DNA from: Candidatus Pollutiaquabacter sp. | GTDB taxonomy: Bacteria; Bacteroidota; Bacteroidia; AKYH767-A; 2013-40CM-41-45 | NCBI GenBank assembly: GCA_947465495.1 | Contig: CANIAS010000022.1 | Span: 1-39,447, forward strand | DNA: 39,447 nucleotides | Direction: 5' to 3' | Translations under genes and position numbers: made by a program | Shown here: piece after piece, positions 30,194-39,447 of the stretch | Layout of the letters: each line of letters starts with the position of its first letter | Numbering within the stretch: the stretch's first letter is position 1 | The notes under the pieces: model-generated | The model's database searches: none | What the model was told of the DNA's origin: nothing | The model's input: the letters and a program-made list of their open reading frames with translations, nothing else

Positions 30194-32083
30194 CTAACGT
30201 ACAATCAGCACGGGCATTTTTACTCGATGTCTGACCGCATCAACCGTGGAACCATAAACGAAATCTTTATACCCTTTGTGACCGTGCGCACCTAATACCA
30301 ACAAATCGGCATTAAAAGCTATTGCCATATCTGAAATGGCCTTTGAAGGGCGGCCAAAACCAATCATACTATCAACGCGATATCCTTTATCGCGAAGTTG
30401 CTGGCAATAGGCTTCCAGCAGCTTGCGATCGGATTGAAGTTCTAAATCGCTGATGTCGCTTGACATCATCATAGCGCCTGCAGATTCAAGCACGTGTATA
30501 AGTAAGTACTCAGCTTCCAGTCCACCTTGTGTTAAAGCGGCAGAAAGCGATCGCTGGTCTTTCGCTGAAAAATCAAGTGCTACGGCTATCTTTCGATACG
30601 ATTCGTGCGCCATAGCTTCCAATGGCTCTTGATGGGCATGGTTAGACTGTTTACGTGGAACTGGCTTATGTTTGCTTAACCATGGACGAATGGTGATGTA
30701 GACTAGCAATGCACCTACGCTAATGGTCAATGGTAGTACCAATCCATATATAACCAAGGGATGACCACTGGTAGTCATCCAATCATACAAATAGGAAGTA
30801 ACCAATCTGGCATTTAATCCAACGATAATCAAGGATGAAATCCACGCCAATACTTTCACCCAGTTCGAAATGACGAATTCTCCCATTCGTTGTCGGTCGC
30901 TGACGAAATGAATGAGAGGTATTACTGCAAAACCCAGCTGGAGACTGAGTATTACTTGCGATAGCACCAGCAATTTTCCTGTTGCCGCTTCACCATAATA
31001 AAAGATGGTTAGAAGGGCTGGCACAATGGCAATCAGTCGGGTAATCAGTCGTCGCATCCATGGTGCGATTCGTAAATTTAAATAGCCCTCCATCACGATC
31101 TGACCTGCTAAGGTGCCTGTGATGGTGGAGCTCTGCCCGGCGGCAATAAGTGCAATGGCGAATAAGGCAGGTGCAAGCTTGGATCCTAATAACGGTTCAA
31201 GAAATGCGTGTGCATCTTTAATATCGGCGACCTCAAACAGTCCGTTGCGGTAAAACGTGGCAGCTGCCAAAATCAGAATGGCAGCATTGACAAAGAAAGC
31301 AAGGTTTAAGGCGATGGTGGAATCAATCAGGTTATACTTCAATGCCCTGCGAATGGAAGTCGGGTTCTGTTCTACTTTTCGTGTTTGTACCAGAGAAGAA
31401 TGTAGGTACAAATTGTGAGGCATAACAGTCGCTCCGATAATGCCTATTGCAATGTATAAGGCAGTTTCATCGGGCAAGGAGGGAACGAACCCTTGAAGAA
31501 TTTCTCCAGTTACCGGCTGAACAATGATCATTTCCGCCAAAAATGCCATGCCAATTATGCCAATCAAGCAAATAATGAAGGCTTCAATCTTTCGCATTCC
31601 AAAATTGATCAAGAACAATAACAGGAACGTGTCGAGCACTGTAATACAAACTCCCCACATCAAGGGCAATCCAAAAAGTAATTGAATGCCAATGGCCATG
31701 CCTAGAACTTCGGCCAAATCCGTTGCAGCTATGGCAATTTCAGCCAAAAGGTATAGGAAGAGATTGATCGGTCGTGAATAGGTCTGTCGGGATGCTTGTG
31801 CAAGATCATGTCCGCTAACGATGCCAAGACGGGCACTCAGACTTTGCAATAAGACTGCCATCAAATTCGACATTAGTAATACCCAGATTAAGGTATAACC
31901 ATATCGACTTCCACCGGCAATATCCGTAGCCCAATTCCCTGGATCCATATAGCCGACACTCACTAAATAAGCCGGACCTAAAAACGCGAACAACCGACGG
32001 AAACCCTTCAGCTTCGTAGAAGTAGTATCAATGGATCCGTGGACTTCGGATAGCGAACGGTGTGGCTCGTGACGTTGATTCAT
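30194..32083 (-). CDS. Nramp divalent metal transporter fused to a universal stress protein domain
   Basis: A 629-residue fusion. Residues about 30-470 are an Nramp (MntH-like) proton-coupled importer of Mn2+/Fe2+, with about 11 membrane helices. The metal-site motif is DPGN (47-50) in helix 1 and MPHN (221-224) in helix 6, where Nramp usually has MPHN with a Met ligand. Residues about 496-629 are a cytosolic universal stress protein domain ([20 protein letters not shown]) with the nucleotide-binding signature [17 protein letters not shown] near the end. A charged linker (470-495) joins them. The domain could sense ATP or stress to gate transport, which is an inference. It is divergent from pyrD. 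Confidence 0.93.
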
Positions 32084-33257: not shown

Positions 33258-33917
33258 TTACTTTTCTAGGTGCTTCAACACTTTCGCCTCTAGGTAAAAA
33301 ATGATTTCTTCAGCCACATTCTTCGTTTGATCACCTGTCCGTTCCAGTTTCCGTATGGCTGAAACGATGTGTAGAGCAGGAGTAATACCATCCACGTTGC
33401 GTCGAATGACTACTTCAATAGCCGCATTCGCGGCGCCGTTAATTTGATCCAACAATTCATCTTTCTGGAAAACTCCCCTGGCAAGCTTTGCATTTTCATT
33501 CTGAAATGCAAGTTGCGTATCGTTCATCATCGAGATTGCTTGGTCAAACATTTCATTTAAACGAGTAATCTCCATCAATTCGGCACTAAATGGCGCTTGT
33601 GCTTCAATTACATATCGCGCAATTCCATCTGCAATATCCCCAACACGTTCCAGGTTGGAATTTATTTTTAAAACAGCCAATACAAATCGTAAATCAATGG
33701 CCACCGGATTAAACAACGCAAAGATATTTTCACAGTCTTTATCGATCTTAAGCTCCAGTGCATTGACGCGCTTTTCATTGAAGTTCACTTCGTGAGCCAA
33801 TTCTTTATCAAAATCAACCATGGCTAATTGAGCCTTGCGTAATTGCGAGGCGACCAGGTCGAACATCTCGATGCATTCTGACTTTAACCGCTTTAATTCA
33901 GTATCCAGGTGTGACAT
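33258..33917 (-). CDS. phoU: Phosphate transport regulator PhoU
   Basis: A 219-residue protein of two tandem three-helix PhoU repeats (about 1-105 and 110-219) with the metal-binding-type motif FALFNPVAIDLRFVLAVLKI and the parallel second-half segment RLNEMFDQAISMMNDTQLAF. It links the Pst transporter to the PhoR/PhoB pair and represses the Pho response when phosphate is plentiful. It is the last gene of the phosphate unit, 63 bp after pstB. Confidence 0.95.
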   Translation of the reverse strand: MSHLDTELKRLKSECIEMFDLVASQLRKAQLAMVDFDKELAHEVNFNEKRVNALELKIDKDCENIFALFNPVAIDLRFVLAVLKINSNLERVGDIADGIARYVIEAQAPFSAELMEITRLNEMFDQAISMMNDTQLAFQNENAKLARGVFQKDELLDQINGAANAAIEVVIRRNVDGITPALHIVSAIRKLERTGDQTKNVAEEIIFYLEAKVLKHLEK

Positions 33918-33980: not shown

Positions 33981-34739
33981 TTACCCAAAACGTCCGGTAA
34001 CGTATGCCTGAGTTCTGGAATCGGTTGGATTGGTAAAAATATGAGGCGTTGTATCGTATTCAATCAGTTCGCCGAGGTAAAAGAAAGCAGTCTTGTCACT
34101 GACACGACCTGCTTGTTGCATGTTGTGTGTGACAATGATAATGGTATACTTTTCCTTCAATTCATAAATCAACTCCTCGATTTTAGCCGTCGAAATAGGA
34201 TCCAGCGCAGATGCTGGTTCGTCCATCAACAACACCGATGGTTCATTAGCCAATGCGCGTGCTATGCAAAGCCGCTGTTGCTGCCCCCCCGACAATTCAA
34301 AAGCAGACTTGTTCAGTTTGTCTTTGACTTCGTTCCAAAGTGCTGATTGTTTCAAGGAAGTTTCAACACGCTCTTCGATGTAATCTTTGTTCTTGATTCC
34401 ATTGACCCTTAAACCGTAAGCAACATTCTCAAAAATGCTCTTTGGAAATGGATTAGGTTTCTGAAAAACCATGCCCACTTTTTTCCGCAGTTCATCGATA
34501 CGCATTCCTAATCCTTTACCATAAATATCACGACCTTCTACCAGTACATCGCCTTCAATCCGCACATTGTCAATTAAATCGTTCATACGGTTGAACAAAC
34601 GCAGGTAGGTTGATTTACCACAACCGGATGGACCAATCAATGCCGTCACAGTATTAGACTCAATCTGCATTGAAATATCCTTCAGGGCGTGGAAATCCCC
34701 GTAGTAAAGCTGGACGTTCTTGGTTTCTATCATTCGCAT
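33981..34739 (-). CDS. pstB: Phosphate ABC transporter ATP-binding protein PstB
   Basis: The ATPase of the Pst high-affinity phosphate importer, 252 residues. Walker [10 protein letters not shown] (36-44), the Pst-type segment [11 protein letters not shown]-loop [20 protein letters not shown], signature [16 protein letters not shown] (148-163), Walker [13 protein letters not shown] (169-180), and the H-loop in [11 protein letters not shown]. The ATG at 34739 is taken; an ATG two codons in is also possible. It lies 14 bp after pstA. Confidence 0.97.
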
Positions 34740-34753
34740 CGTTTCGCCTTTCT

Positions 34754-35608
34754 TTAGTTCATTTTAACACGGTTGCTGAAATACCGACGTAGTGCGTTGG
34801 CTAGCAAGTTCAATAATAAGACAATCATGACCAGCACCAACGCCGTACCGTATGCCATATCTCTAGAGGCAGTAATGTTCGTACCACTGGTGGAAATAAC
34901 GTACAGGTGATACGGAAGCGCCATGACTTGATCAAATACGGAAGTCGGAAGTTGTGGTAAAAAGTAGGCCGCCACTGTAAAAAGGATCGGTGCAGTTTCG
35001 CCAGAAACACGTCCAATGGCAAGGATTAAACCAGTAATAATATTGGGCGTTGCAATAGGAAGCACCACTTTACGGATGGTTTGTAGTTTGGTAGCGCCTA
35101 GCGCAAGGCTACCTTGACGGAAACTGTTTTCAACCGCTAGCAAAGCTTCTTCCGTAACACGAATCACTACCGGTAATGCAAGCAATCCTAGCGTTAGCGA
35201 TCCAGCTAAAATAGAATCGCCAAAGTTGAGTTTCTTAACGAATAATGCCATACCAAACAAACCGAATACAATGGATGGTATACCCGCCAAATTATTGGTC
35301 ATAAGCTTTATGAAGCGCTTGAACCAATTATCTTTTGCATATTCATTAATATAAATACCTGCCAAGAGTCCAATCGGGAAAGCAAAGATCATTGATCCAC
35401 CAACCAGGCAAAGTGTTCCAATAATGGCAGGGTAAATACCCCCTTTAGTCATTCCGTCTTCAGGGATGGATGTTAAAAACTCCCAACTGATCGTCCTCCA
35501 ACCTCGAGAAAAGATGAAGTAGAGAATTCCTAATAATAATGCGACAACGCACCAAGCGAAAATCCGGAATATCCAGAAGGCGATCTGTTGTTTCGTCTGC
35601 TTCTCCAT
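34754..35608 (-). CDS. pstA: Phosphate ABC transporter permease PstA
   Basis: Inner-membrane permease subunit of the Pst importer, 284 residues and about six transmembrane helices. The permease coupling loop reads [20 protein letters not shown] (about 168-187) and pairs with PstB. Other family segments are [11 protein letters not shown] and [20 protein letters not shown]. It starts 2 bp after the pstC stop, so translation is tightly linked. Unlike PstC it carries no large periplasmic insert. Confidence 0.96.
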
Positions 35609-35610
35609 GA

Positions 35611-36816
35611 TTATTTCTTGAATTTACGTTTAGCTGAAATGCGTTCCACCCAAATGTTGATAATCAATGTGATGATGAAAAGTATGCAACCTAATGCAAA
35701 GAGGGCCTTGTAATGCACACCACCGTTCGGCGCTTCGCCAAGTTCAGCAGCAATCGTAGCTGGAATTGTACGTACCGGCTGCAAAATACTCTTGGGCATC
35801 ACTGCAGCGTTTCCAGTTACCATCAATACTGCCATGGTTTCACCAATTGCACGACCAATGCCAAGAATGGCGGCTGCTGAAATTCCAGACATAGAATAGG
35901 GTAGAACCACTTTTTGAATGGTCTGCCACTTATTGGCACCCAATGCCAACGATGCTTCACGCATACTTCTGGGAGTATTACGGATAGCATCTTCAGAGAC
36001 CGTAATAATAGTAGGTAAGGCCATAATGGCTAATACTAATGATCCGGCTAATGCTGTTTCTCCGACAGGCAAATCAAACACGTCGTGAATAAAAGGAACA
36101 ATGGTGATTAGTCCGAAAAATCCATAAACAACAGAAGGAATTCCAGCCAGTAATTCGATAACTGGTTTAAGCACTTTTCGTATTCGCTCATCCGCAATCT
36201 CAGCCATGTAAATCGCAGTAGCAAGTCCGATGGGTAAGGCTAATAATATCGCCAATAAGGAAACCATCAATGTTCCTAAAATCAAAGGCAATACACCAAG
36301 CTGAACAGCAGGCTCTGCAGTGGGAAACCATTCTTTTCCAGAAAGAAAATCTGGCAAATTATTTTTATTGACGTCAATGGTGTGGCCTTTAAAATAGCTG
36401 GTACGGTATGACTCATTAATTACGGCAAGCGCATTCGGGAGACTATCAACTAATCGACTGAAACAATCAGGCAAATGCTCGAACTCGGCGCCGATTTGTT
36501 CTTCAGAGTAATAGTTGCCAATATCATTGACGGTAATAATCAAAATGTCTTCATCCTTACCGCCAACCTCTTTCCAATTGGTGATTTTCTGGTCGAAAAT
36601 ATCTTTGATAGAGACCGCGCTTAGTTTTTGGACAGGATTACTTTCGTTGACCACCAACGCTGTTTTATTTTCCAATGGCGAAGTCCCGAAGAGTGATAGC
36701 CCTTCATTGAATAAGAAAACGACAATGAGCAGTACCGTCAGGGAAGTGACAGTACCGCTCAAGGCGAGCAATCCTTCGATGAATCGCTCCGTAAATTGTC
36801 TATAAGCTCTTTTCAA
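35611..36816 (-). CDS. pstC: Phosphate ABC transporter permease PstC with a PstS-like periplasmic insert
   Basis: Second permease subunit of the Pst importer. At 401 residues it is roughly 80-100 longer than common PstC. The membrane part is normal: one helix at about 22-42, five more after 172, and the coupling loop MREASLALGANKWQTIQKV. Between the first and second helices lies an extra periplasmic domain of about 120 residues (45-165). Its first part (53-98) clearly resembles PstS 104-145 next door: both have V-N-x-S-N-x-V-x-K-L, then an I-x-x-I stretch, then KI-x-NWKEVGG-x-D. The phosphate-loop SSGT of PstS is replaced by DIGN. It begins 11 bp after pstS. Confidence 0.95.
   Translation of the reverse strand: MKRAYRQFTERFIEGLLALSGTVTSLTVLLIVVFLFNEGLSLFGTSPLENKTALVVNESNPVQKLSAVSIKDIFDQKITNWKEVGGKDEDILIITVNDIGNYYSEEQIGAEFEHLPDCFSRLVDSLPNALAVINESYRTSYFKGHTIDVNKNNLPDFLSGKEWFPTAEPAVQLGVLPLILGTLMVSLLAILLALPIGLATAIYMAEIADERIRKVLKPVIELLAGIPSVVYGFFGLITIVPFIHDVFDLPVGETALAGSLVLAIMALPTIITVSEDAIRNTPRSMREASLALGANKWQTIQKVVLPYSMSGISAAAILGIGRAIGETMAVLMVTGNAAVMPKSILQPVRTIPATIAAELGEAPNGGVHYKALFALGCILFIITLIINIWVERISAKRKFKK
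36523..36660 (-). other. PstS-like segment within pstC
   Basis: Codons 53-98 of pstC. They align without gaps over most of their length to pstS codons 104-145 (37212-37337). Shared residues include the NWKEVGG block and the KI-x-N before it, with visible similarity at DNA level too (ctctttccaattggtgattt against cttctttccagtttttgatt). The wider insert spans 36322-36684. The second half may follow the same lobe, but the likeness there is weak. Confidence 0.7.
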
Positions 36817-36827
36817 GAAACAACTGA

Positions 36828-37646
36828 TTACTTACTCAAAGGAATATAGCCGACTTCATCCACTGTTTTCTGACCTTCTGGCGAAATTACATAATTCAAA
36901 AATGGTTTGACATAATTTTCCTTAGCAGTTGGATAGTAGAAATAGAGTGGACGAACAATTGGATAAGTTTTGTTTTTAGCAGTCTCCTTAGAGGCTAAAA
37001 TATAATTCTTACCGTTGTCATAAGAGACCGCAATATCCTTGACCTCATTATTTACATAGGCAAATCCTACATAACCAATAGCTCCTTTGGTCTGACCAAC
37101 CGATTGAATGATTGCACCGGTGGCAGGCATGTTCAAGACATTAGACGCATAATTCTTGCGGTTCATGACGAATTCTTTAAAAAATTCATACGTTCCGGAA
37201 CTTGTCTCTCTTGCATAAACGACAATCGTCATATCATCTCCTCCAACTTCTTTCCAGTTTTTGATTTTGCCCGTGTAGATGCCTTCGATTTGTTGACGGG
37301 TCAACTTTCCTACTTTATTGCTTGGATTAACAATGATAGAAAGTGCATCGTAACAAATTATCGTTTCTTTGACAGACTTGCCGGCATCTTGCAACTTTAG
37401 CCGCTCATCCATTTTTAATTTACGAGACGACATTGCAATATCCGTTGTGCCATCCATTAATGCAGCAATCCCTACACCGGACCCACCGCCCACAACAGTA
37501 ATTGGTTTCAATGGATTTGCTTTCATGTATTTTTCAGCCTCTTTCTGAGCCAAGGGTAATACAGTGTCACTGCCTTTCAAAACCACTTTTTGAGCAGAGG
37601 CCGTTAAAATGCTAGTTAGTGCTAGCAGAGCGATCAGTTTCTTCAT
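36828..37646 (-). CDS. pstS: Phosphate ABC transporter substrate-binding protein PstS
   Basis: Periplasmic phosphate-binding protein, 272 residues, with signal peptide MKKLIALLALTSILTASA. The phosphate-binding loops are visible: GSDTVLPL (25-32), MSSRKLKMDE (about 72-81) and ARETSSGTYEFF (145-156). The segment IKNWKEVGGDD lies between. It has no lipobox, so it is probably soluble or loosely held. It is the second gene of the unit, 26 bp behind the porin gene and 11 bp before pstC. Confidence 0.95.
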   Translation of the reverse strand: MKKLIALLALTSILTASAQKVVLKGSDTVLPLAQKEAEKYMKANPLKPITVVGGGSGVGIAALMDGTTDIAMSSRKLKMDERLKLQDAGKSVKETIICYDALSIIVNPSNKVGKLTRQQIEGIYTGKIKNWKEVGGDDMTIVVYARETSSGTYEFFKEFVMNRKNYASNVLNMPATGAIIQSVGQTKGAIGYVGFAYVNNEVKDIAVSYDNGKNYILASKETAKNKTYPIVRPLYFYYPTAKENYVKPFLNYVISPEGQKTVDEVGYIPLSK

Positions 37647-37672: not shown

Positions 37673-39073
37673 TTAGAATCGTACTTGAATGCGCAGGGTA
37701 AATTGATTGTCAGACAAATCTTGGGTGTAACCAGACAAATTACCAGAGGTTTCATTGGTGACTAAATCATAGTAGGCCATAATACGTGCCGTTGACTCCC
37801 AACGGTACACCAATCCAAACCCCCAAGTGTTGTATCGAATATCACCAGCGCCCGTCTTTGTGAGTCCGTCGCCAACAGATTTTCCAATATCATCTCCTTT
37901 GACATCTGTATTCGGATCGAACCAATCATATTTAACAACTGCTTGCAAAGGGGTTTCCATGATATTTTGAAGGAAGTAAAATATAGCTCCATTGAATGGA
38001 CGCGTATAAACGTCGTATAAACCAGTATAACGTGTATTCATACTAGCGCTGCTACTGGATGATCCGGGCTGAGTACCTTGCCAGTATTCAGCACGTAATG
38101 TAGTCATTCCAGGACTCCATGTCACAGAAACCTGACCATCCAATCCTAAGTATTGACGATTAGTATAGGATCGATCCAAGTAGCTAATGGTTTTTTGCTC
38201 ATCTTTCAGAATATCCTTTTTATATCCATATACTCCATTTGCATCCTGAGCTAATTCAAAAGCATTTACGGTGTCAACACGAAAACCACCACTGTAAACG
38301 GAAGCTCCGATGCCGTATCGAACGGATTCCTCTCGATTGGCATGGGCGAAGCTTAGACGACCTACAAAATCCTTTTTAGTGTCCGTTTCGGAAACATCTC
38401 CCAAGAGGTAATAGTTCCCATATGATTTGTCATACGATAGCGAGGTATTTGCTACACCACTATTACCATTCACCAGCATCAAATCCAACCGCAAAGAATG
38501 ATATTTAGAAAATTTATGTGGGTTGATGGTCAGCATAGCACCTAGGTCACGTTCACTAGGAAAGAGCAATTGCGCCATGCGTGCGCGCTCCGGCGTCTCA
38601 CGAAGTCCGGACGAATAGGGAACCTCAAAACCGAATTGTCGGTTTTGTAAACCCATTGTAAGAGAGAACCATCCCAATTTTCGTTCAGAAAGTTTACAAT
38701 AGGCATCCATCAGTCGCACACCCTTTTCAGTCATATCTATCTGAAACATCATCGAACCCAAAGATAAACCTCGTTCGTCAGCTTGAGAATCGTACTGCAC
38801 ACGAAGTCGAGCACGGCGAATCATGAAACGTGATTTATCGCCAGGTGCAAAATTTCCACCATTGAACGACTGTTGACCAGCAGAGTCCGCTAATTGGTAT
38901 TGCGCCTGAACGTATCCGTTAATCTTTAAACGTTTTAGCACATCCAATTCCTGGCGAATCCCTGCAACGTGACTCGTTAGTGTATCCATCGGATTCAGCT
39001 CGAAATCTTGTGCGAATATATCCGCCATCGGATATGCAAGCAGCGCGATAATAAGTAGTTGTAGTTTTTTCAT
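37673..39073 (-). CDS. OprP/OprO-like phosphate-selective porin
   Basis: Outer-membrane porin of the phosphate-selective (OprO/OprP) family, 466 residues. I start it at the ATG giving MKKLQLLIIALLAYPMADIF, a clean signal peptide; an ATG-like start 14 codons upstream spoils it. A short coiled stretch (SHVAGIRQELDVLKRLKING) precedes the barrel. The first strands contain SRFMIRRARLRVQYDSQADE and MMFQIDMTEKGVRLMDAYCK, typical of the family. The chain ends in FTLRIQVRF with a terminal Phe for barrel assembly. Leading the pst genes supports a role in phosphate entry across the outer membrane. Selectivity for phosphate over polyphosphate is not readable. Confidence 0.9.
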   Translation of the reverse strand: MKKLQLLIIALLAYPMADIFAQDFELNPMDTLTSHVAGIRQELDVLKRLKINGYVQAQYQLADSAGQQSFNGGNFAPGDKSRFMIRRARLRVQYDSQADERGLSLGSMMFQIDMTEKGVRLMDAYCKLSERKLGWFSLTMGLQNRQFGFEVPYSSGLRETPERARMAQLLFPSERDLGAMLTINPHKFSKYHSLRLDLMLVNGNSGVANTSLSYDKSYGNYYLLGDVSETDTKKDFVGRLSFAHANREESVRYGIGASVYSGGFRVDTVNAFELAQDANGVYGYKKDILKDEQKTISYLDRSYTNRQYLGLDGQVSVTWSPGMTTLRAEYWQGTQPGSSSSSASMNTRYTGLYDVYTRPFNGAIFYFLQNIMETPLQAVVKYDWFDPNTDVKGDDIGKSVGDGLTKTGAGDIRYNTWGFGLVYRWESTARIMAYYDLVTNETSGNLSGYTQDLSDNQFTLRIQVRF

Positions 39074-39098
39074 GCCTTTGGTGGTTAAATTTACGTCG

Positions 39099-39106
39099 CA
39101 AATAAA
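39099..39106 (-). promoter_or_regulatory. Putative -7 box of the phosphate operon
   Basis: The minus strand reads TTTATTTG, one mismatch from TAnnTTTG, 25 nt before the porin ATG and directly next to the candidate Pho box. Confidence 0.35.
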
Positions 39107-39133
39107 TGAACCCAAAGTGAACCAATGTAAACA
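39106..39133 (-). promoter_or_regulatory. Candidate Pho box (PhoB-type direct repeats)
   Basis: On the minus strand three related 7-mers occur in order: TGTTTAC, GGTTCAC, GGTTCAT, separated by 3 and 4 bases, so the period is 10 then 11 bp. This is the spacing of PhoB/PhoP boxes (7-bp repeats with 4-bp spacers; the core TT-T/C-AC resembles the Bacillus form). It lies immediately upstream of the candidate -7 box of the porin-pst operon and downstream of a PhoB-like gene. Confidence 0.5.
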
Positions 39134-39235
39134 TTGATGTTAATTAAACATTAAATATTAACTGAACTAAAAATTATAGTAAACGTAGCGTTACAATTAC
39201 AGTGTAAACTATTGATATTTAGCTACTAGCAAATA

Positions 39236-39262
39236 AAAAAGCACCCATTTTTTGGGTGCTTA
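39236..39262 (-). terminator. Rho-independent terminator after the PhoB-like gene
   Basis: An inverted repeat AGCACCCA/TGGGTGCT with a 5-nt loop, followed on the minus strand by a run of six T. It lies about 35 bp after the regulator stop and separates that gene from the porin-pst operon. Confidence 0.85.
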
Positions 39263-39293: not shown

Positions 39294-39447
39294 TTAGCTA
39301 AGAATCAATCGGTAACCAATTCCTTTTTGCGTAACAATGAATTCATCACCCAGTTTTTTACGAAGTCTTAATATGTGAACGTCGATAGTACGGTCCTTTT
39401 CATCACTGGTACGCTTCCACACTTTTTCAAAAATTTCCTCACGGGTA
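39294..39447 (-). CDS. phoB: OmpR/PhoB-family response regulator (C-terminal part only)
   Basis: The last 51 codons of a gene that continues beyond the right edge. They encode the end of a winged-helix DNA-binding domain: EEIFEKVWKRTSDEKDRTID, VHILRLRKKLGD (recognition helix) and the closing hairpin TQKGIGYRLI, then a TAA at 39294-39296. This is the OmpR/PhoB fold. The phoB symbol is inferred from its place beside the phosphate operon; another regulator of the family is possible because the receiver domain is not visible. Confidence 0.8.
   Translation of the reverse strand, partial: TREEIFEKVWKRTSDEKDRTIDVHILRLRKKLGDEFIVTQKGIGYRLILS

Follow-up and report, generated by a model that had tools for sequence, protein, structure and literature searches.

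The porin-pst locus

The stretch of DNA analyzed here (the window; 39,447 nucleotides) is the complete contig C22 of a draft genome of Candidatus Pollutiaquabacter sp., a 2.7-Mb assembly of 117 contigs. On its minus strand, a repeat array is followed by an operon in the order porin, pstS, pstC, pstA, pstB, phoU. The first gene (positions 37673 to 39073, with its ATG at 39073) encodes an outer-membrane porin-like protein. This protein had no match in Pfam or NCBIfam, and the name "porin" is putative, taken from a first-pass annotation of the DNA and from the context of the gene. pstS (36828 to 37646) was identified by Pfam and NCBIfam domain searches, and pstC (35611 to 36816) by Pfam; pstA (34754 to 35608) and pstB (33981 to 34739) were assigned from the Pfam domains BPD_transp_1 and ABC_tran, respectively, together with operon order. 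phoU (33258 to 33917) matched NCBIfam TIGR02135 above the cut-off and was also found by Pfam.

Upstream of the operon and on the same strand, positions 39294 to 39446 encode the C terminus of a winged-helix regulator of the PhoB/OmpR type (Pfam Trans_reg_C), the remainder of which is on contig C103. The best NCBIfam model for this fragment, NF053854, scored far below its cut-off. An intrinsic terminator (39239 to 39261, minus strand) ends the regulator gene and separates it from the porin-pst promoter.

Two other features of the window were recorded. The N-terminal part of PstC has a PstS-like stretch: residues 50 to 98 resemble part of PstS (PBP_like_2, E = 6e-7), a PstS query also matched PstC in many relatives, and a similar stretch was seen by eye in Flavobacterium PstC. 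At positions 30194 to 32083, an Nramp-type metal transporter is fused to a universal-stress-protein domain.

Repeats upstream of the porin gene

The first-pass annotation had read three direct repeats upstream of the porin gene as a Pho box. The repeats are present on the minus strand as described, TGTTTAC (39133 to 39127), GGTTCAC (39123 to 39117), and GGTTCAT (39112 to 39106), with spacers of 3 and 4 bp. They stop 32 bases short of the porin ATG and, as that annotation also held, abut a promoter element of the Bacteroidota -7 type, TTTATTTG (39099 to 39106, minus strand), with which the third repeat shares one base. Bacteroidota promoters also follow a spacing rule for a -33 element, and no -33 TTTG at the normal spacing was found in the window promoter. 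A sigma-70 promoter scan found no promoter, as expected for Bacteroidota. The consensus of the Bacteroidota -7 box is TAnnTTTG (PMC9723704), from which TTTATTTG deviates at the second base.

Taken alone, the three repeats are not significant, because an equally good triple of 7-mers (10- or 11-bp steps, mutual identity of at least 15/21) occurred in 27% of 2,000 dinucleotide shuffles of the 166-bp intergenic region.

TTAACAT repeats in related genomes

A search for porin homologues was positive in 38 of 120 relatives and, across the class, in 66 of 395 genomes. We collected 62 porin upstream regions. Second copies were included, whereas a single 5'-truncated copy and all matches with E values above about 1e-29 were set aside; gene starts were placed at a nearby ATG by script. 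Removal of one near-duplicate (G027) left 61 regions for analysis.

The dominant signal in these regions was TTAACAT repeated every 11 bp (TTAACAT plus 4 bp), in up to five units. Near matches to TTAACAT (6/7) numbered 142, versus 63 in shuffled sequences. Pairs of units exactly 11 bp apart numbered 37, versus 0.24 expected, and there were 6 on the reverse strand; a further 10 pairs were 22 bp apart and 8 were 33 bp apart. The distance from the second unit of a pair to a TTTGC or TTTGT was 41 bp in 21 cases and 30 bp in 9, which implies units at positions -52, -41, -30, -19, and -8 relative to TTTGC. Information content was highest at -52 and -41, and there was little at -8. When five units were anchored at TTTG, 42 of the 61 regions beat their own shuffles at p < 0.05 and 37 did so at p ≤ 0.01; the remaining 19 did not reach p < 0.05. 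In this test the best-scoring TTTG anchor was picked for each region, and the shuffles were handled likewise.

The first-pass annotation had named a lack of conservation upstream of orthologous operons as one observation that would refute its reading. Repeats were conserved there, and the Pho-box reading was not refuted. The motif that it had proposed, GGTTCAy, did not fare as well: in the same 61 regions there were 13 matches to GGTTCAC at 6/7 or better, versus 142 to TTAACAT, and 2 pairs 11 bp apart. GGTTCAC, TTCACAT, TTCACTT, and TTTACAT were also tried as the core unit, and by counts in the 61 regions all were weaker than TTAACAT. GGTTCAy is a local variant and not the motif.

The five-unit array in the window

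Read in the register of the relatives, the array in the window has five TTAACAT-like units, not three, and with the terminal TTTGC it extends over positions 39098 to 39154 of the minus strand as a putative Pho-type operator/promoter. Unit 1, TTAATGT (39148 to 39154), is at -52 relative to TTTGC, a position that is strongly conserved in relatives; unit 2, TTAACAT (39137 to 39143), follows after 11 bp, at -41, and is an exact match to the consensus. These two units had been overlooked in the first-pass annotation, the repeats of which correspond to units 3 to 5. Unit 3, TTTACAT (39125 to 39131), begins 12 bp after unit 2 and holds most of TGTTTAC; unit 4, TTCACTT (39115 to 39121), begins 10 bp later and overlaps GGTTCAC; and unit 5, TTCATTT (39104 to 39110), begins 11 bp after unit 4 and overlaps both GGTTCAT and the -7 element. 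The spacers are ttaa, caatg, tgg, and tggg, and a single a separates unit 5 from TTTGC. The unit register of the relatives is kept, with starts at 39154, 39143, 39131, 39121, and 39110, followed by TTTGC.

Because the units in the window are degenerate and their steps are irregular (11, 12, 10, and 11 bp), the window contains no pair of TTAACAT units exactly 11 bp apart at 6/7 matches. Nonetheless, the score of the five-unit array in 11-bp register upstream of TTTG, calculated with the consensus learned from the relatives, was reached by only 10 of 20,000 shuffles. Chance was therefore rejected as the source of the extended array, although not of the three repeats alone.

Profile search of this genome

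A search of this genome with a two-unit pattern gave 10 matches, versus 17 for the backward control; since there was no enrichment, we replaced the pattern with a profile. The profile, R1, is a 62-position sequence model made from 29 relatives, with this genome left out. From the 37 rows with p ≤ 0.01, G000 and G145 were removed, and 29 of the resulting 35 rows were given to R1, six (G007, G031, G135, G236, G348, and G384) having been dropped by eye. Because the best-scoring TTTG anchor was picked for each row, TTTG is enforced in the profile.

The sole R1 match at E ≤ 10 in the window was at 39157 to 39098 (E = 4.1e-4), and across all 2.7 Mb of the genome the same site again ranked first (E = 0.029). 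The second match (E = 0.065) precedes genes for a small protein and two response regulators on contig C103. The third precedes a gene for a secreted protein on contig C10 (E = 0.15), the fourth a canonical phoB-phoR pair on contig C31 (E = 0.19), and the fifth the DUF47-PiT phosphate transporter genes on contig C51 (E = 0.45); the sixth (E = 7.6) was taken as chance. A reversed-sequence control model gave a best match of E = 0.20 in this genome and several others at 0.26 to 0.7. By score, therefore, the C10, C31, and C51 matches (E ≥ 0.15) are at or near noise, and these sites are persuasive by gene context alone.

Profile searches of other genomes and gene sets

R1 had a match at E ≤ 0.5 in 10 of the 11 genomes of the family. 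The family search listed 47 places, and we annotated 24 match loci of this genome and its relatives. Among the annotated matches that do not precede a porin gene, some precede phoB-phoR (G003 and G000), regulator pairs (G006 and G010), or a degenerate regulator (G008), and others precede genes for TonB-dependent receptors (G010, G009, and G002) or a secreted protein (G004). Several weak matches among the 24 loci, mainly in G008, had no phosphate gene in view.

To these we add two observations on the genes downstream. TonB-dependent receptor-like genes lie directly after Pho-box-like matches at six loci (L128, L125, L121, L225, L226, and L230), and some of them adjoin the pst cluster; it is possible that they encode phosphate-regulated outer-membrane transporters. 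Secreted proteins that start with GLE(K/N)IIVEKYYVSD are encoded after Pho-box-like matches on contig C10 of G000, near position 52077 (L107), and on contig C10 of G004 (L130 and L135).

Among 80 named pstS loci, 41 had a plus-strand R1 match at E ≤ 0.01 and 39 did not; 5 had a minus-strand match, and the reversed-sequence control gave 2. Nine of the 80 loci have fewer than 1,700 bases before pstS and were counted nonetheless. Six loci share rows with the source list of the training set (L141, L142, L143, L144, L158, and L185, although the rows of L141 and L185 are absent from the final model); without these six, 35 of the remaining 74 loci had a plus-strand match at E ≤ 0.01. The carriers include Rufibacter hautae and Rufibacter latericius, Sabulibacter ruber, three Adhaeribacter, and five Flavobacterium species; many pstS loci labelled as Prevotellaceae or other Bacteroidales had no match at that threshold.

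When the complete sequences of F. degerlachei, F. enshiense, and R. hautae were searched, 10 matches at E ≤ 0.1 were obtained. The best sites in these three genomes were before pst genes or, in F. enshiense, before DUF47-PiT, and others were before pstC and TonB-dependent receptor genes. Seven of the 10 matches were annotated, of which one, in Rufibacter, had no plausible gene; the remaining 3 fall at porin-pst or pstS positions already matched in the pstS-locus search.

Pairs of TTAACAT units 11 bp apart were also counted upstream of single genes in relatives. They were found at 11 of 29 phoB loci (0.09 in shuffles; one 5'-truncated locus, L293, was excluded) and at 5 of 30 PiT loci (0.1 in shuffles), but at none of 30 loci of the control gene smpB (0.01 in shuffles).

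Candidate regulators

The first-pass annotation had pointed to a PhoB-like gene next to the repeats. A winged-helix regulator gene does adjoin them, but it is atypical. Contig C103 abuts C22 in frame, and across the junction the two give one gene, the product of which has a winged-helix domain and a receiver that, by eye, is without the usual acidic pair. A free-standing receiver that looks complete by eye precedes it; the two genes together occupy 3 to 909 of L106 (contig C103) and 39446 to 39294 of the window. The pair of receiver and atypical regulator is also found in G006 (L126) and G010 (L120), and G008 has a degenerate member (L123).

The ordinary phoB-phoR pair is on contig C31. The regulator of this pair has receiver and winged-helix (Trans_reg_C) domains, and PhoB was its best NCBIfam model, albeit below the curated cut-offs (228 of 296 and 217 of 270). 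The DNA-binding domain of this regulator could be aligned with that of E. coli PhoB, the structure of which is solved (1gxp, E = 8.8e-17). The gene that follows is histidine kinase-like (phoR), as seen in translation only.

Given the degenerate receiver and the ordinary phoB-phoR pair elsewhere, the adjacent regulator need not be the protein that binds the array. The recognition helices of the C31 PhoB and the atypical regulator are nearly alike (DRTIDVHILRLRKKL and DRTIDVHIRKLREKL), and both proteins may read the array.

DISCUSSION

The array upstream of the porin-pst operon is best read as a real regulatory element: a Pho box whose sequence is specific to the phylum and whose array is longer than the two-unit box of E. 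coli. Same-strand direct repeats with a period of about 11 bp (7 + 4), two units or more, are strong in the relatives and degenerate in the window. They recur before pst, phoB, and PiT genes and were absent before the control gene smpB. They hold a fixed position beside the core promoter, where they would replace a -35 or -33 element, with a register of 41 or 30 bp to a TTTGC that probably serves as the -7 element. The genome encodes a candidate PhoB and PhoR (the C31 pair, in which PhoB is below its NCBIfam cut-off). The unit is not the CTGTCAT of E. coli; the consensus of the relatives is TTAACAT. The conservation before orthologous porin-pst operons, the register to a -7-type element, and the identity of the other genes that carry the motif favor the original Pho-box reading, of which the three-unit extent has been given up. 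On the strength of these sequence patterns, the array is very probably a Bacteroidota-type Pho operator and the porin-pstSCAB-phoU promoter one that a PhoB-family regulator activates. Its TTAACAT core, found again ahead of phosphate genes in many other Bacteroidota genomes, is most likely the site to which the phosphate-starvation regulator binds.

PhoP boxes in Bacillus subtilis consist of TTAACA-type repeats with a period of about 11 bp, several of which lie upstream of the core promoter; the hexamer is nearly identical to the unit found here, but the promoter is a Gram-positive sigma-A promoter. The Pho box has been described as 11-nt direct repeats, with 7 conserved and 4 less conserved positions, and the motif in E. 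coli is CTGTCAT (PMC4415409). Like the Pho box of E. coli PhoB, the array has head-to-tail 7 + 4 units upstream of pst and beside the core promoter; unlike it, the array has TTAACAT units, up to five of them, that run into the -7 element of a TAnnTTTG-type core promoter. The PHO box motif of Streptomyces coelicolor, GTTCACC (PMC4415409), resembles GGTTCAC, but GGTTCAC is not the conserved unit in the relatives studied here.

Within the Bacteroidota, the nearest prior art is the PhoP motif of Riemerella anatipestifer, by which the motif described here was partly anticipated. DNA affinity purification sequencing (DAP-seq) gave 583 peaks and a motif whose most conserved nucleotides, TTTAACA, resemble the TTAACAT unit, and PhoPR was upregulated in phosphate starvation (PMC9603813). 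We found no unit count or core-promoter register for that motif, and the term "Pho box" is absent from the main text of that paper. In Bacteroides fragilis, PhoB binds a 512-bp fragment of the pstC promoter and is needed for pst expression; we found no box sequence defined for it, and "consensus" and "binding site" are absent from the main text (PMC3547664). Phosphate-depletion genes have been reported for F. johnsoniae in a paper that uses neither "Pho box" nor "binding site" (PMC8115612), and a paper on lipid remodelling mentions putative Pho boxes near plcP (PMC4796936). In the open-access literature, to which our survey was confined, we found no pst-associated Pho box defined for the Bacteroidota apart from the Riemerella PhoP motif.

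The array might be read not by the canonical PhoB but by the adjacent atypical regulator, together with the free-standing receiver as its partner, in which case the locus would be a local, autoregulated phosphate switch. The gene order across the abutting contigs (site, small protein, receiver, atypical regulator, site, porin-pst) fits this arrangement, as do the order receiver, atypical regulator, porin in G006, the sites upstream of the regulator genes in G000, G006, and G010, and the similarity of the two recognition helices. Yet the motif also precedes phoB and, in many genomes that belong to other families, porin-pst, and we consider a purely local switch unlikely, if still a serious candidate. 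It is a good deal less probable that the TTAACA repeats serve some other regulator of the OmpR/PhoB family, such as an ArcA-like redox regulator, with a main signal other than phosphate. A high similarity between the Riemerella PhoP motif and the ArcA motif of E. coli has been reported (PMC9603813), but the sites found here recur before porin-pst, phoB-phoR, and PiT, which are core phosphate genes, and not before smpB.

The three repeats noted originally, matched as they were by more than a quarter of the shuffles, could suggest chance, or an effect of base composition in an AT-rich intergenic region that has phased tracts. Such an origin is highly improbable given the strand-biased excess of 11-bp pairs in the relatives, their register to TTTGC, and the 41 of 80 named pstS loci matched by R1 versus 2 by the reversed model.

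If the array is a Pho operator, it could work as follows. Phosphate starvation, the presumed signal, would lead to phosphorylation of a PhoB-family response regulator, and dimers of the phosphorylated protein (PhoB-P, if PhoB is the binder) would assemble head-to-tail on the tandem units of about 11 bp (TTAACAT plus 4) that end at TTTGC. The -7 element is weak and has no -33 element, and bound PhoB-P would recruit RNA polymerase with the main sigma factor. The result would be transcription of porin-pstSCAB-phoU from a start predicted at about 39090 to 39093. The departure of the -7 element from TAnnTTTG is a counterpoint to reading this region as a Pho promoter.

A more elaborate model is that PhoB arrays in Bacteroidota are long, with five 11-bp units that follow one another without a gap from near -60 to within the -7 element, and that in this family the array is served both by a canonical PhoB and by a split pair of receiver and pseudo-receiver winged-helix proteins, the pair itself being under the same operator. 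We offer this model tentatively and think it doubtful in its full form.

Phosphate control in Bacteroidota has so far been studied by means of mutants and transcriptomes. With a searchable Pho-box model anchored on the -7 element, Pho regulons could be predicted in a large part of the phylum, and phosphate-starvation data sets already available would become testable.
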